Shown one piece after another: positions 2,187 through 43,889 of a stretch of DNA of 64,000 nucleotides. The first letter of the stretch is position 1; each line of letters begins with the position of its first letter. The notes beneath the pieces are model-generated. The model worked only from the letters and a program-made list of their open reading frames with translations. It had not been told where the DNA came from and did no database searches. Both the position numbers and the translations under genes were made by a program. This stretch comes from Pseudomonadales bacterium (GTDB lineage: Bacteria; Pseudomonadota; Gammaproteobacteria; Pseudomonadales; DC-out160): contig JAHRWA010000044.1 in the NCBI GenBank assembly GCA_019090455.1, forward strand, positions 1-64,000. Direction: 5' to 3'.

Positions 2187-3767
2187 ATGGATATCGCCAA
2201 CAAAACCATCACCAACAATGCCGCATCCAACGTTAAAGTTGATAAAGAAATACTCATTATCGGTGCCGGCATCAGCGGTATCGGAACCGGTATAGAACTC
2301 AAAAAGCATCATATGAATTCTTTCATGATTCTGGAGAAAAGTGATTCTCCAGGAGGAACATGGCGAGATGCAAGCTATCCCGGCATCGCCGTGGACATCC
2401 CCTCATTTTCCTACTCCTTTTCCTATGAATTGAATCCAGAATGGTCAAAGATGTTTTGTGAGGGAGATGAGATTCGACAGTACGTTGATAATTGCGCCAA
2501 AAAATACGGCATCTATTCCCATTTTCGTTTTAACAGCAAAGTCGAAAAAACGGTCTTTGATACCGACAGCAACACTTGGACAACCCATTTAAGCGATGGC
2601 ACGAAACTGGTTTCCAATTATGTTATCGCGGCAACTGGCATTCTCAATCAACCGAAATATCCCGATATTCCCGGCATGGATTCCTTTACAGGAAAAACAA
2701 TGCACACCGCTCGTTGGGATCATGATTACAGCCTCGATAACAAAAAGGTCGCCATCATCGGTACCGGCGCCAGTGCGGTACAAATTATCCCGGCTATCGC
2801 AAAGCAAGTTAAATCCATGACGGTCTTTCAACGCACGCCTATATGGGTGATGCCAAGATACAACCTTAAGATAAGCAAACTGGCGCAATCCGTTTTCAAA
2901 CACGTTCCATTCGTTTCACGTTCAATTCGAAATATGACCGACGCAGGACTCAATCTTGGCGCGTATACAGCGGTAAACTATTCACGATTTCCGTCGCTCA
3001 CCCGTAACGCTGAATCCACCTGTATCAAGCACGTCAACAAACAAATTGAAGATCCCGCTACGATAAAAAAACTGATTCCTAAATACGATTTTGGTTGCAA
3101 GAGACCCGCTATTTCAAATGAGTATTTTCCCACTTTCAATCAAAAAAATATTGAATTGACCACAGAGGGTATTGAGCGGATCACGGAAAAAGGTATCGTC
3201 ACTGCCGACGGTGTGGAACACGAAGTAGATCTACTGATATGGGCTACTGGCTACAAAACCCAAGAGCCGGGTAACGCTCCCAGTTTTGGCGTCATCGGAT
3301 CTAAAAACTATGACTTAGGTGACTTCTGGTACGAAAACCGATATCAGGCATACAATGGGGTATCCGTGCCGGACTTCCCTAATTTCTTCCTGACCTTTGG
3401 CCCTTATACCGGAGGCTTAAATTGGTTTTCAATGTTAGAAGCCAATGCATTGTTTATTGTTCGCTGCCTAAAAGAAGCGAAAAGAAAAAAATCACGTTAT
3501 ATAGAGGTCACCCAGCAAGCCAATGACGAATACCTGGCAGACATGCTCGAAAGATCAGAGGGCTCTGTCTTCAATAACGCGGCGTGTTCCGAGGCCAACA
3601 GTTATTACTTCGATAATCATGGTGAAGCCTCACTGCCTAGCCCCTTCACCCCTTTGTGGCGATGGTTTCGAGTCAGACTAGTGGATTTGGATGCATATCG
3701 GTTTGCACCCTTGAAAACAGGAAGTCAATCTAGTAAGTCTCCAACACCTCTTTCAGAAGTTCAATAA
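2187..3767 (+). CDS. FAD-dependent Baeyer-Villiger monooxygenase
   Basis: This class B flavoprotein monooxygenase is predicted to insert oxygen next to a ketone carbonyl, giving an ester or lactone, using FAD and NADPH in the cytoplasm. The N-terminal FAD Rossmann motif is GAGISG (residues 26-31). The family fingerprint FxGxxxHxxxW[PD] appears as FTGKTMHTARWD at residues 167-178. A second dinucleotide motif, GTGASA, follows, and the ATGY motif is near residue 353. Length (526 aa) is typical. The start is fixed by a GGAGG ribosome site 6 bases upstream. The gene converges with, and overlaps by 38 bp, an alpha/beta hydrolase on the other strand that could cleave the ester product. The substrate is not predictable; cyclic or long-chain ketones and steroids are possibilities for the family. 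Confidence 0.9.
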   Translation: MDIANKTITNNAASNVKVDKEILIIGAGISGIGTGIELKKHHMNSFMILEKSDSPGGTWRDASYPGIAVDIPSFSYSFSYELNPEWSKMFCEGDEIRQYVDNCAKKYGIYSHFRFNSKVEKTVFDTDSNTWTTHLSDGTKLVSNYVIAATGILNQPKYPDIPGMDSFTGKTMHTARWDHDYSLDNKKVAIIGTGASAVQIIPAIAKQVKSMTVFQRTPIWVMPRYNLKISKLAQSVFKHVPFVSRSIRNMTDAGLNLGAYTAVNYSRFPSLTRNAESTCIKHVNKQIEDPATIKKLIPKYDFGCKRPAISNEYFPTFNQKNIELTTEGIERITEKGIVTADGVEHEVDLLIWATGYKTQEPGNAPSFGVIGSKNYDLGDFWYENRYQAYNGVSVPDFPNFFLTFGPYTGGLNWFSMLEANALFIVRCLKEAKRKKSRYIEVTQQANDEYLADMLERSEGSVFNNAACSEANSYYFDNHGEASLPSPFTPLWRWFRVRLVDLDAYRFAPLKTGSQSSKSPTPLSEVQ

Positions 3768-4605
3768 ACGCTTGAGGCTGATCTAAAAACAGATGATGTG
3801 CCGCATTCGGTAAACTGATAAACGGCACGTCATCAGGATAAGACTCTTTCATGTAGTCCAAGAATGCAGGAAAAAACAACATGCTTTTTTCGCCATGTAT
3901 CACCGTTGTTTTCAATTTCAGATTCGCAATATCCAATTGAAGTTCATCAGGCTCTTTCTTGATTACAAAGTCCGTATCAAACTTCCAAGAATATCCGCCC
4001 TCTACTTTCCCCAAAGAATGTTGGGCAATAAATCTTACAATAAACTCGTTCTCACAAGGTTGAGGCGGTAACAACTTAAACCGAGTAACCGCAGTCGCGA
4101 GATCGGGATAGACCTTTTTCGCTTTAAATGTTGATCCCATCATCTCACTATTAGGTTGAAAATTAGGAGGAAACATCGCCGAATCGATCACCACTATTCC
4201 GCGCAGTCGATCCGCATAATCCAACCCCGCCTGCAAGGTACCCTGCCCCCCATAACTATGAGCCGCAATGACAGTGCCCTCACCCAGACCCGCATCATCA
4301 ATAACAGCCATTAATTCTTTCGCAAAAAGTTTAGATGAATAAGACTCACGATGATCACTCTCACCCATGCCACTAATATCCACAGCGGCAACATTGTATT
4401 TTTCTAAAAAAGACGGGGCAATAAAATCCCACCAATGGGTATGAGCACCCCCACCGGATACCAGCAATAAACCGGGCTTATCACCTGTATTGTTCCACTT
4501 TTGGTAATGAATTTTACAGGACTCAACTTCAATAAAATGATCTTGATAGGGAGTGTTAACAGCCTCGATAAACCAGGCTGGTGCTTCCTTGTCAGAATAA
4601 TGCAT
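3730..4605 (-). CDS. Alpha/beta hydrolase
   Basis: The 291-residue protein has the alpha/beta hydrolase fold: an oxyanion-hole region LLLVSGGGAHTHWWDF near residues 40-55, a nucleophile elbow AHSYGGQG (Ser is the catalytic residue) and a C-terminal histidine in NAAHHLF. It has no signal peptide, so it is likely cytoplasmic. It may be an esterase, lactonase or epoxide hydrolase. Its 3' end overlaps that of the Baeyer-Villiger monooxygenase. Monooxygenase plus hydrolase is a common pairing in ketone degradation, so ester or lactone hydrolysis is a reasonable inference. A perfect 18-bp palindrome lies about 32 bp upstream of the start and may be its operator. Confidence 0.85.
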   Translation of the reverse strand: MHYSDKEAPAWFIEAVNTPYQDHFIEVESCKIHYQKWNNTGDKPGLLLVSGGGAHTHWWDFIAPSFLEKYNVAAVDISGMGESDHRESYSSKLFAKELMAVIDDAGLGEGTVIAAHSYGGQGTLQAGLDYADRLRGIVVIDSAMFPPNFQPNSEMMGSTFKAKKVYPDLATAVTRFKLLPPQPCENEFIVRFIAQHSLGKVEGGYSWKFDTDFVIKKEPDELQLDIANLKLKTTVIHGEKSMLFFPAFLDYMKESYPDDVPFISLPNAAHHLFLDQPQAFIELLKEVLETY

Positions 4606-37444: not shown

Positions 37445-38690
37445 TTACACAATTCTAACCGCTTGTTTTAAAGTCTCAGCATCCAAACACCAAGGCAGCA
37501 ACGCTTCATAATCCTCAACCATCGTTGCCAAGGGTAGCTCTTTAAAAATATGCTTCAGATAAGCATACGGCTCGTGGCCATGAAGCTTGCACATTTCAAT
37601 AAGGCTGTAAAATCGAGCATTCGTATGCGCACCCTTTGGGGTATCTGCGAACAACCAATTGCGTCTACCGATGGCGACGGGCCTGACGGCTCGCTCATCG
37701 CTATTACTGTCGATCTCGAGTATCCCACTATCACAATATCGAATCAGTTTTTCCCATTGATTTAACGTGTAGTTGATAGCAACGCCTAGCGGTGACTTGG
37801 GCAGAATCACTTGAGTATCCAACCACCCCTCTTTAAATGTGTTCAACAGAGGAATTGATTTTTCTTGGCGTAACGCATAACGCTCTTCTGACGAAAGCGC
37901 TTTGCCTTCTTTTTCGATCGCATATAACTTTTTAAAGAAGGTCAGTGCCGTAGCGGCTTTTGATTTTCGAACCGCTTCTTTGCTGGATAACGATTGGAGT
38001 GCATCGTTAAATTTTCGGCGTGCATGCGCAATGCATCCCGCCAGAGTGATACCCTGCTTTTCTAAAACGTTGTAAGCGGCATAACCTTCACACTGAACAT
38101 ACCCATGACACCCTTCAAACAAAGCGAGGACAACCTCAGAGGTACGGCTGGGATAATAATTATATAAAACAGATTCTTTACACGGCAGACCTCCGTGGCG
38201 CACCCAGATATAAGACTTAGAAGAGACCTTTCGATTGATCTCTTTTAATACCTGTATCGTTGTTTCATCACATTGGGTGTAAGGCCCGGCTCGAATTCCA
38301 TCAGCTAATAAGTTGATGAGTGGTAATGCCGCTTCGGCTAACTGAATTAACCAACGAGACATCGTATTTCGCGGTGGTGATATAGGATAACAAGCCGGCA
38401 TTGGTTTTGGGTAATATCTGAGGCGGTTTAATCGAAGTTTTGATGGACTCTTTTGACTTGCAGCAAGAGCAGGCATATTTATGCTACACATGTTCAATCA
38501 CGATATAGCGAGCGGAAACCCTATCGTACTACTCACTTTTCTGTTCGCCGATTTTCGTTAGCTCTGCACCGCAATCACATAGACGCTCACTTTTATCTAA
38601 TGTGTACTCAATGCGTTGGCGTTCTAGATTATTATCACAGACCTTACGCTTTCCCCGCTTCTTGCGCTGTTTTTTTTCCAACATAATATT
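37445..38690 (-). pseudogene. tnpC: IS66 transposase TnpC, broken
   Basis: The intact stretch (37445-about 38370) has the IS66 DDE-transposase core: RWLIQLAEAALPLINLL, QCDETTIQVL, GYVQCEGYAAYNVL, GCIAHARRKF, DSNSDERAVRPVAIGRRNWLFADTPKGA and the C-terminal domain FYSLIEMCKLHGHEPYAYL. The upstream portion is visible only in another frame (ERLCDCGAELTKIGEQ, then KYACSCCKSK, a zinc-finger-like region). It contains two in-frame TAG codons, and the usual KYxDxLPLYRQ segment is missing. It also runs directly into the truncated tnpB. Not functional. Confidence 0.85.
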
Positions 38691-40976: not shown

Positions 40977-42542
40977 ATGTTTGAATTCATCAAGAACTTG
41001 GCCACTAAAGTAGGGCATGAATTTACACCTAATTTAGTCAGCAAAATTGCGATCAACCATCTTGCTAACACGGCCCAGCATCTACCGAGCCAGTATAGCT
41101 TATGGTCATATCAGGAAGGCAAGGTATGTGACTACGTTTCTTGGTCCTCCCTTACCGACAAATCCTATACTGGACGACTATTAGGGCCCGCTGCCGCTGA
41201 CGTGGTCGGATCATTGCCGCTCGACCCGCCGTTCCAGAGTCCATTAGACGATCAGTACGGACAGGTCACTGCCTTGTTCAAGCGTAAACAGCAAATAGAT
41301 AGTGATCGTACTAGCTTGTTGTTCCCATTTTTCGCACAGTGGTTTACCGACGGTTTGATCCGAGCTGACAATGCCGACCCAAGGAAGAACGCGTCGAATC
41401 ACGAAATCGACCTCTGCCAGATATACGGATTGACAGAATCTACGACCCGAATTCTACGATCCATGGAGAAGGGAAAGCTGAGGAGCCAGTTAATTAATTC
41501 TGAAGAATTCCCGGACTACCTGTACGGGGAGAATGGCGAGGTCAAAAGTATTTACCAGAATTTGCCTTACGTGTTGGACAATCGCTTAGAAGAAATCATC
41601 AACCAATTTGACGACGCTAAGGATCGGAAGCCTAGTTATTTTGCCACGGGTCTTGAAAGTGGTAATTCATCGGTGGGCTACACGACCATGAGTACGATTT
41701 TTCTTCGTGAGCATAATCGACTTTGCGATGAACTCGCCTCTCAAAATACAGACTGGGACGACGAACGTTTGTTTCAAACGGCAAGAAACATCAACATCGT
41801 ACTATTGTTAAAGGTTGTCGTCGAAGATTACGTTAACCATATTTCACCCATCAAAACACCCATTTTTAAGCTCGACAACACGGTTGCTGAAGATAAAAAA
41901 TGGAATCAACCGGGCCGAGTTAGCTTTGAATTCGATTTACTCTATCGCTGGAGTAGCCTGATACCAGACCAAATGAAATTCGGTTCAATAGACTACGATT
42001 ACAAACAGTTTATGTTGAATAATACACTACTCACCGAGCATGGCTTAGCCAAAATAGTGAATGATGCGTCTCATCAACGGGCCGGGAAATTATCATTAAG
42101 CAACACACCCGACTTTCTGTTAGGTGAGCAGCATGAAGCCATTAAGATGGCTCGTAGTTTCCAAACTAGAAGTTTAAACGAGTACCGGATTCTTTTTGGA
42201 TTGGAAAAGTTCCACGATTTTAATGATGTCACTTCGGACGCCGCCCTTTCCAATAGGCTCCAAGGCTTATACGGTCATGTAGATTACCTGGAGTTGTTCA
42301 CTGGTCTTTCTGCCGAGGGAATAGAGGACAATGCTATTTTTGGCGAGCTGATGACGACTATGGTCGTCAGTGATGCACTCACTCATGCCTTGACTAATCC
42401 GTTGCTAGCAAAGCAAGTGTTCAACTCAGGAACCTTTACCCGATCAGGAATGAACGTGATTGAAAATACGAGTTCATTGCAAGACATTACTAATCGAAAT
42501 CTACCCTCCGGCGCAAGGGCAGAAATTTCATTTGGATTCTAA
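40977..42542 (+). CDS. Cyclooxygenase-like heme peroxidase family protein, heme ligands altered
   Basis: The protein aligns over most of its length with animal prostaglandin H synthases: CDYVSWSSLTDKSY, FFAQWFTDG, STIFLREHNRLCDEL, TDWDDERLFQTAR, EFDLLYRWSSLIPD, SLNEYRILFGL, LQGLYGHVDYLELF, DAIFGE-like NAIFGELM. Cyclooxygenases oxygenate polyunsaturated fatty acids at a heme-generated tyrosyl radical. The catalytic Tyr385 equivalent is kept (Tyr323), and Gln203 is kept (Gln121). The distal His207 aligns with Asp125 and the proximal heme ligand His388 with Ser326. No signal peptide or EGF domain. It may be a heme-free relative or bind heme otherwise. A strong terminator follows. Confidence 0.8.
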   Translation: MFEFIKNLATKVGHEFTPNLVSKIAINHLANTAQHLPSQYSLWSYQEGKVCDYVSWSSLTDKSYTGRLLGPAAADVVGSLPLDPPFQSPLDDQYGQVTALFKRKQQIDSDRTSLLFPFFAQWFTDGLIRADNADPRKNASNHEIDLCQIYGLTESTTRILRSMEKGKLRSQLINSEEFPDYLYGENGEVKSIYQNLPYVLDNRLEEIINQFDDAKDRKPSYFATGLESGNSSVGYTTMSTIFLREHNRLCDELASQNTDWDDERLFQTARNINIVLLLKVVVEDYVNHISPIKTPIFKLDNTVAEDKKWNQPGRVSFEFDLLYRWSSLIPDQMKFGSIDYDYKQFMLNNTLLTEHGLAKIVNDASHQRAGKLSLSNTPDFLLGEQHEAIKMARSFQTRSLNEYRILFGLEKFHDFNDVTSDAALSNRLQGLYGHVDYLELFTGLSAEGIEDNAIFGELMTTMVVSDALTHALTNPLLAKQVFNSGTFTRSGMNVIENTSSLQDITNRNLPSGARAEISFGF

Positions 42543-42572
42543 TAATTGATTAATTTGTGCATGAGTTTATCG

Positions 42573-42606
42573 GGGATCTCAGCCTTTAGTTTAGATCCCT
42601 TTTTTT
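42573..42606 (+). terminator. Rho-independent terminator
   Basis: GGGATCT (42573-42579) pairs with AGATCCC (42593-42599), followed by seven T. It lies about 30 bp after the stop of the cyclooxygenase-like gene, on the plus strand. Confidence 0.8.
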
Positions 42607-42641: not shown

Positions 42642-43889
42642 CTAAGCATAGGATCCCGCACAGTAGCCAGATGACCATGCCCACTGAAAGTTAAAACCGC
42701 CCAAATGCCCTGTCACATCGAGTACTTCCCCAACAAAATACAGCCCTTGCTGTTGTTTGACTTCCATTGTTTTAGAGCTGACACCATCAGTATCCACCCC
42801 GCCTAAGGTCACTTCTGCTGTGCGATAGCCTTCCGTTGCCGATGGTTTAACGACCCAACGATTGAGAGACTTTCCGATTTCTTGGAGCTGCTTATCCTTA
42901 AACTCTGCCAATGGACTATTTCCGGACTCTGACCACCAGCAACTCTGTAACTCTGCAACTAGCGCATTCGGTAATATTTTATTTAACTGTGTTTTCAGTA
43001 AACTCTTCCCATGCTGCGACTTTGCCTCTAAGAGCCATTCAGTTGCATCCCTATTCGGTAACAAATCAATCAACACTTCATCGCCTGGGCGCCAGTAATT
43101 TGAAATTTGTAATGTAGCGGGACCACTCATTCCACGATGCGTAAAAAGTAGGTTCTCAGTAAACTGATGCCCCTGGCAACTAACATCAACCTCTATCGCG
43201 ACACCTGATAATCGTTCACACATGGATAGTGTGGCATCACTGAACATGAAAGGCACCAGCCCCGCTCGTCGCTCTACAACGGTAAGACCAAATTGATTAG
43301 CGATGTCGTAACCTTTACCGCTGCCTCCCAATGTCGGGATAGAGAGCGCCCCCGTTGCGACAACAACTGACTCACTTTCTAATGTAATGACTGTGGATTT
43401 TTTGGAGTAAGCCACTTTGTATCTATTTCGATTTTCGCTTTCAGCCATTATCTCTGAGCGACCCGTTAGATTTTCAATTGACCTCACATCACAGTGAGCT
43501 TGAATCGTAACGCCTGCCTTGTCACATTCTCGTAGCAGCATGGCGAGAATATCTTTAGCCGAATTCACACAAAAAAGTTGGCTATGCTTTCGCTCTTCGT
43601 ACTCAATTTCGTGCTGATCCACCATGGCGAGAAAATCCCATTGCGTAAAACCGTTCAGTGCGGACTTACAAAAATGGGGATTATTTGAAATAAAATTATC
43701 TGACTCCACTACATAATTAGTGAAATTACAGCGACCACCACCGGACATTAAAATTTTCTTTCCTACTTTGTTGGACTTTTCCAATACGATAACTCGCCGC
43801 CCTCGCTGAGCGGCCGTCAATGCGCACATCAGTCCCGCAGCACCAGCGCCAAGAACAATAACATCAAATTTCGGAGATTTATTTTTCAA
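42642..43889 (-). CDS. HI0933-family FAD-dependent oxidoreductase (YhiN/BaiN-like)
   Basis: Flavoprotein of the HI0933 family. The FAD motif is GAGAAGLMCAL (14-24), followed by the family signature KKILMSGGGRCNFTN; FLLTHRGMSGP-like LFTHRGMSGPATLQ and the C-terminal GEVLDVTGHLGGFNFQWAWSSG close the FAD site. Members are linked to reduction or desaturation of organic substrates, but the reaction here is not predictable. Length 415 aa. The start is a TTG (43889) without a clear ribosome site, needed to include the FAD motif. Cytoplasmic, apparently monocistronic. Confidence 0.88.
   Translation of the reverse strand: MKNKSPKFDVIVLGAGAAGLMCALTAAQRGRRVIVLEKSNKVGKKILMSGGGRCNFTNYVVESDNFISNNPHFCKSALNGFTQWDFLAMVDQHEIEYEERKHSQLFCVNSAKDILAMLLRECDKAGVTIQAHCDVRSIENLTGRSEIMAESENRNRYKVAYSKKSTVITLESESVVVATGALSIPTLGGSGKGYDIANQFGLTVVERRAGLVPFMFSDATLSMCERLSGVAIEVDVSCQGHQFTENLLFTHRGMSGPATLQISNYWRPGDEVLIDLLPNRDATEWLLEAKSQHGKSLLKTQLNKILPNALVAELQSCWWSESGNSPLAEFKDKQLQEIGKSLNRWVVKPSATEGYRTAEVTLGGVDTDGVSSKTMEVKQQQGLYFVGEVLDVTGHLGGFNFQWAWSSGYCAGSYA

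Follow-up and report, generated by a model that had tools for sequence, protein, structure and literature searches.

Among known enzymes, the closest comparison for the protein described here is the linoleate 10S-DOX of Nostoc punctiforme, a protein of 542 aa (Brash et al. 2014, via PMC13049297). As PMC13049297, a review of linoleate dioxygenases from 2026, describes it, the cyanobacterial 10S-DOX is about 31% identical to cyclooxygenase (COX) and retains proximal His388, Tyr385 and Tyr348, and the distal helix of the active enzyme reads F143-t-d-s-F versus F205-t-h-q-F in COX. The review further reports that 10S-DOX adds oxygen to C10 of oleate and linoleate and that a separate catalase-related hydroperoxide lyase can cleave the product. 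In COX dimers, according to PMC12756642, the catalytic subunit is the one that carries the high-affinity heme; its partner takes up fatty acid and has a modulating role, and full activity is reached near one heme per dimer. Dual oxidases, as presented in a 2015 review, carry a mutated peroxidase domain with no activity, and the same review lists bacterial cyclooxygenases as then known only from putative sequences (PMC4420034). Among the titles and abstracts of open-licence PubMed Central papers that our searches listed, none reported a COX-like protein from bacteria that lacks the proximal His.

Here we describe a gene for a cyclooxygenase relative that is, in effect, a naturally occurring mutant of the proximal ligand. 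It lies in the window, a stretch of 64,000 nucleotides from a Pseudomonadales bacterium (GCA_019090455.1, contig JAHRWA010000044.1), where its ORF runs for 521 codons from an ATG start with zero internal stops. The features that matter for the argument are listed below; the COX residue numbers used here follow the ovine numbering.

40977..42542, + strand: DOX/COX-like ORF of the animal heme peroxidase superfamily (10S-DOX/COX-like, 521 aa), from ORF, Pfam, phmmer and model
41337..41339, + strand: codon of Gln121 (COX Gln203), the same residue in every row of the family alignment (32 rows)
41349..41351, + strand: codon of Asp125 (COX distal His207), Asp in 43/43 distinct homologues
41355..41360, + strand: codons of Leu127-Ile128, immediately past the distal helix predicted at 115-125; most relatives read Phe-Leu
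41829..41831, + strand: codon of Tyr285 (COX Tyr348), kept, invariant in the 32 rows
41904..41918, + strand: codons of Asn310-Arg314, mostly YRxNW in the family, with R311 and W314 strongly conserved columns in the alignment
41943..41945, + strand: codon of Tyr323 (COX catalytic Tyr385), invariant in the 32 rows
41952..41954, + strand: codon AGT of Ser326 (COX proximal ligand His388); CAC or CAT in three sisters in the codon alignment
42572..42606, + strand: stem-loop and T run found by folding, probably an intrinsic terminator that may also serve the convergent gene 42642-43889

The original prediction had called the protein a cyclooxygenase relative nearly end to end, and both sequence and structure comparisons agree. 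It scores 146.8 bits against Pfam An_peroxidase (PF03098; cut-off 25, E 1.1e-42), and a search of NCBIfam returned no family. The top phmmer matches among PDB sequences are prostaglandin G/H synthases 2 and 1, with E 4.9e-64 for 5kir_A, whose residues 103-540 align with 52-509 of the window protein. The AlphaFold2 model (mean pLDDT 78.8, pTM 0.83) has the cyclooxygenase fold, matching COX-2 (1ddx_A) with Z 41.0 and rmsd 2.5 over 463 aligned residues within the model range 1-521. COX-1 and COX-2 are the best of the 50 structural matches listed (Z 39.7-41.0), and Foldseek also returned the COX fold; lower matches are Dictyostelium peroxidase A (Z 31.1), a cyanobacterial peroxidase (Z 30.5), plant alpha-dioxygenases (Z 27.6-29.1) and DUOX1 (Z 26.3-27.1). 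A COX fold alone, here a predicted one, is no proof of function.

In the gap-free phmmer alignment to COX, the distal motif of the window protein reads FFAQWFTDG versus FFAQHFTHQ, and the proximal motif LLYRWSSLIPD versus TLYHWHPLLPD. Gln121 falls in the column of Gln203, Asp125 in that of His207, Tyr323 in that of Tyr385 and Ser326 in that of His388, just as had been predicted for both the two kept residues and the two replacements. The COX pair of distal and proximal His is absent, its places being taken by Asp125 and Ser326, and with Ser in the His388 column the protein lacks the proximal heme-ligand His that characterises the peroxidase-cyclooxygenase superfamily and the 10S-DOX-type family alike. 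It does carry the 10S-DOX-type distal motif AQ(W/Y)(F/L)(T/V)D, as AQWFTD, and the equivalents of Tyr385 and Tyr348 (Y323, Y285) that go with it.

It had also been claimed that both heme histidines were lost, and here the two sites part company. The proximal half of the claim stood: that position is His in 42/43 distinct homologues and Ser in the window protein only, and no second genome with a proximal Ser was found among them. The distal half did not, and we rejected distal-His loss as a private event of the window protein, the position being Asp in all 43. Because the distal Asp is common to all homologues, one canonical ligand has been lost relative to the protein's own family, not two. 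Judged from the alignments, this bacterial family carries the distal Asp as a stable feature, which corrects a likely misreading, and the proximal Ser326 is private to the window lineage, as far as sampled. What appears new is one private proximal-ligand loss; the distal Asp is known, and ordinary for the family.

The first set of homologues came from GTDB species contigs, from scans of one order, one class and two further orders, from ten of the genomes looked up individually, and from plasmids, with 9 of the 16 plasmid matches taken; it held 33 distinct homologues, including the window protein and a second copy from its own genome. Two later genome scans added 4, and IMG/VR gave 8 sequences, 6 of them distinct, for a total of 43 distinct homologues, which are not 43 independent events because many are closely related. 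The probes for the GTDB contigs included FPFFAQWF, and one of the two IMG/VR probes contained the Asp. The fairer distal-Asp count is therefore 37/37, since the six IMG/VR sequences were partly found with an Asp-containing probe. The distal Asp is nonetheless universal among sequences found by whole-protein search alone, which is free of probe bias, and the proximal site was covered by no probe. The family is patchy, with matches below 1e-80 in 4/390 genomes of the window's order, 2/369 of its class and 4/398 of its phylum (own genome included), in 3/385 genomes in the class of a Kiloniella relative and in 9/61 in that relative's order.

The loss can be placed on a maximum-likelihood tree (32 rows, 508 of 651 columns), where the window protein joins L074 (Kiloniella laminariae), L073 (an alphaproteobacterial MAG) and L085 (from Kiloniella's order) with support 100/96. 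These three sisters are 56-60% identical to it and all keep the proximal His; their grouping to the exclusion of the window protein has support of only 89/73. From the shared node, the end branch of the window protein measures 0.48 changes per column versus 0.25-0.34 for the sisters, a ratio of only about 1.4 to 2.0. Because all three sisters have CAC or CAT at the proximal codon, two base changes (CAY to AGT) are needed to reach Ser, and the codon after it is AGC in the window versus GGN in the sisters.

The window protein has also changed more than its sisters elsewhere. Of the 102 columns whose weighted conservation outside the clade reaches 85% or more, it departs at 10, versus 2, 1 and 2 for the sisters; the counts are 17/135 versus 5, 3 and 6 at a 75% cut-off, and 3/51 versus 0, 0 and 0 at 95%. 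The ten departures are R36L, H68L, F127L, L128I, R311Q, W314R, H326S, L397T, F445S and A464V. Changes at 68, 127, 128, 311, 314, 397, 445 and 464 recur in some distant rows (for example, W314R in L103, Lys at 311 in L100 and L105, and Phe at 128 in the own-genome copy), and H326S never does. Low model confidence at residues 304-315 might have pointed to damage there; we rejected this, because the model of the His-bearing Kiloniella control is equally unsure at its residues 293-312.

The gene was expected to act as a single-gene unit, and its surroundings fit: the neighbouring ORFs lie on the opposite strand, and the hairpin terminator at 42572-42606 follows it on the 3' side. This hairpin folds with -13.3 kcal/mol (z -2.78, 1/200 shuffles equally good) and was not picked by a simple consensus terminator scan, whose sole terminator-like site is on the - strand inside ORF 40977-42542 (1 found versus 2.5 expected). 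A promoter scan gave no site upstream of the gene (1 found, inside the ORF, versus 4.1 expected). The neighbours, which we take to resemble a dTDP-glucose dehydratase, a BaiN/YhiN-type flavoprotein and a monomeric isocitrate dehydrogenase, include no recognised pathway partner among the adjacent ORFs. Farther out, 2.5 kb upstream on the other strand, the ORF at window 37445-38497 is presumably IS66-type transposase-like. There was no near match in PLSDB to indicate a plasmid origin (query, window 20000-40900), and the window protein had no match in a collection of annotated phages that would indicate a phage origin.

A second DOX copy lies on a different contig (C4) of the same genome. It is about 44% identical to the window protein, reads YRWH, with the proximal His, and groups elsewhere in the tree. 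PF00067 has 9 matches in the genome, 0 of them on the contig of the window, and PF00199 has none. The latter profile gives the catalase-like neighbours of relatives a weak score or none, so a divergent catalase-like gene might have gone unseen. About 1.0 kb upstream of the second copy, C4 carries a CRISPR-like array (L112:9343 onward) of 41 copies of a 32-nt core repeat, with a spacing of 65-68 nt among the copies listed.

Relatives of the gene offer more context, judging from 28 loci that we compared. A P450 gene adjoins the DOX-like gene on the same strand in 4/28 (Sinorhizobium, two Rhizobium and one in the window's order), a catalase-like gene sits beside it in 3/28 (Methylobacterium, Paracoccus, Ruegeria), and in 2/28, both mycobacteria, a fatty-acid desaturase is found downstream. 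Four of these neighbours clear the Pfam cut-off: the P450s of L110 and L105, the catalase-like gene in Methylobacterium and the single desaturase scanned. The P450 of R. etli and the catalase of Paracoccus are below it and known from record annotation only, the Sinorhizobium P450 rests on annotation plus similarity, and the Ruegeria catalase-like gene and the second desaturase on BLAST similarity only. No pathway context was recognised at the window gene itself; P450 or catalase-like neighbours were seen only at more distant relatives. The P450-DOX pairs, at L110:5318-8301 (window's order), L100, L105 and L106, have gaps of -51 to 30 bases and look like an unfused analogue of the fungal DOX-CYP fusions. 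In the mycobacteria (L016:2834-7818 and L018), the desaturase follows 221 and 241 bases after the DOX-like gene on the same strand, and a gene with a solute-binding-protein match precedes the DOX-like gene.

Some family members may travel with viruses. Eight IMG/VR contigs (L117-L124) carry 10S-DOX/COX-like genes, 6 of them distinct, all with distal Asp and proximal His kept. On L118, the gene at 2836-4584 lies just upstream of PHROGs tail terminator, minor tail and tape-measure matches; tail terminator and minor tail homologues occur in the same order in L117, L120, L121 and L122, and none of these tail-gene homologues was found in the available pieces of L119, L123 and L124. Our literature search found no phage-borne case, and a phage-borne fatty-acid dioxygenase, if these genes are that, would be surprising.

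The product of the window gene is probably an altered or dead enzyme. Our preferred reading, held tentatively and short of a firm conclusion, is that it is a single-lineage derivative of the 10S-DOX type that may have lost the ordinary heme and tyrosyl-radical chemistry while keeping the fold and the fatty-acid channel. Its ancestor would have belonged to the patchy bacterial 10S-DOX-type family, with distal Asp and proximal His, and the window lineage alone, as far as sampled, would then have exchanged the proximal heme-iron ligand for Ser. Without that His, heme would be bound weakly or without normal axial ligation; once the iron ligand is gone, both the hold on heme and the cleavage of peroxide should be weaker, and with them the Tyr radical, so that the cycle from peroxide through ferryl heme and the Tyr323 radical to fatty-acid oxygenation would not run at a normal rate. 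The protein would persist as a fatty-acid-binding pseudoenzyme, and the His-bearing second copy could do the ordinary reaction. In favor of this we count the state of the two heme sites among the homologues (Asp at the distal one in 43/43, His at the proximal one in 42/43), the two-base codon change, the longer end branch, the excess departures relative to the sisters, the low omega (0.05, below), the COX-fold model, the YRWH second copy and the fatty-acid-oxidation type neighbours in relatives.

However, Tyr323, Trp325, Arg324, Tyr285, Gln121 and Asp125 are all unchanged in the 32-row alignment, and they fit a still-active enzyme as well. This counts against our preferred reading and for a heme dioxygenase that is still active with altered axial ligation, in which the peroxidase is weakened and the Tyr323 radical and fatty-acid oxygenation persist; the fifth ligand might be Ser326, water or another side chain, such as Met346 (the COX 408 position, counted along the gap-free alignment). 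COX-2 with proximal His388 changed to Tyr keeps cyclooxygenase activity, so residual activity through other ligation is conceivable, and the intact frame and low omega across the branch also speak for it. Ser, however, is not a usual native heme ligand, and the excess change relative to the sisters includes F127L/L128I after the distal helix and R311Q/W314R before the Tyr helix. We consider this reading unlikely, though a serious contender.

The same excess can be taken as a sign of decay. In that case the gene would have been inactivated recently and would be drifting with little selection on it, made redundant by the second copy and perhaps acquired from another lineage. The second copy with its proximal His elsewhere in the genome and the lack of any recognisable linked pathway gene would suit this. 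So would the genus mate, in which neither copy was found (genome 87% complete, 6% contaminated), and the probable mismatch between nearest relatives in Kiloniella's class and the gammaproteobacterial order of the window. What counts against our preferred reading is that ten departures are not unusual in the family: in a leave-one-out count, distant rows with the proximal His show 7 to 27. Against decay stand the complete ORF with start, stop and terminator and the modest branch length. In a rough codon model of our own making, run on 7 taxa and 501 codons from a single starting point, omega on the window branch is 0.05 versus a background of 0.045 (lnL difference 0.02), and fixing it at 1 along the entire branch costs 11.0 log units, which rejects neutrality. 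With saturation at synonymous sites (the codon branch length is close to 3), this omega is a whole-branch average that allows recent relaxation and leaves the His loss undatable. Decay, too, strikes us as unlikely, though a serious contender. A sequencing or assembly error at the Ser326 codon, suggested by Ser being seen in a single genome, is very improbable, since it would require two adjacent base changes (CAY to AGT) in a clean frame where the next codon (AGC versus GGN) and several nearby conserved residues also differ.

The gene makes it possible to test whether tyrosyl-radical fatty-acid oxygenation can proceed without histidine-ligated heme and whether COX folds turn into lipid-binding pseudoenzymes, with ready controls in the three His-bearing relatives (56-60% identity) and the His-bearing copy of its own genome. 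By analogy with COX, we also entertain, as a long shot, a COX-fold protein that works without normally ligated heme, either as a Ser- or water-ligated dioxygenase or as a heme-poor allosteric subunit. One could speculate that the second copy would be its catalytic partner, a pairing that is conceivable in principle.

Set beside the known systems, the window protein is most like 10S-DOX in its size, COX fold, FTDSF-type distal Asp motif and equivalents of the catalytic Tyr and Tyr348; most of the present bacterial family also shares the DAFxQA motif near the C terminus, and the catalase-like gene beside some relatives recalls the catalase-related lyase of Nostoc. It differs in having Ser where 10S-DOX has the proximal His, a comparison made with Nostoc by published motif only, and in having no linked catalase-like or P450 gene. 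COX-1 and COX-2 share with it the fold (Z 39.7-41.0) and the equivalents of Gln203, Tyr348, Tyr385 and Trp387, whereas they have His207 and His388 in place of Asp125 and Ser326, their Gly526 and Ser530 fall in the columns of Val463 and Ala467, and the window protein is shorter at the N terminus. The dual oxidases resemble it as an animal peroxidase fold that outlasts peroxidase activity (structural match Z 27.1; PMC4420034), but in them the domain forms a fusion with an NADPH oxidase, and its sequence is distant from the window's family. In Coprinopsis CcDOX1/2, as PMC9579011 has it, a heme-ligand residue was likewise lost from a retained domain; there, however, the P450-related part lost its Cys and the dioxygenase part kept both His. 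Finally, the distal Asp of the window's family brings to mind dye-decolorizing peroxidases, in which a distal Asp is catalytic (PMC4420034).
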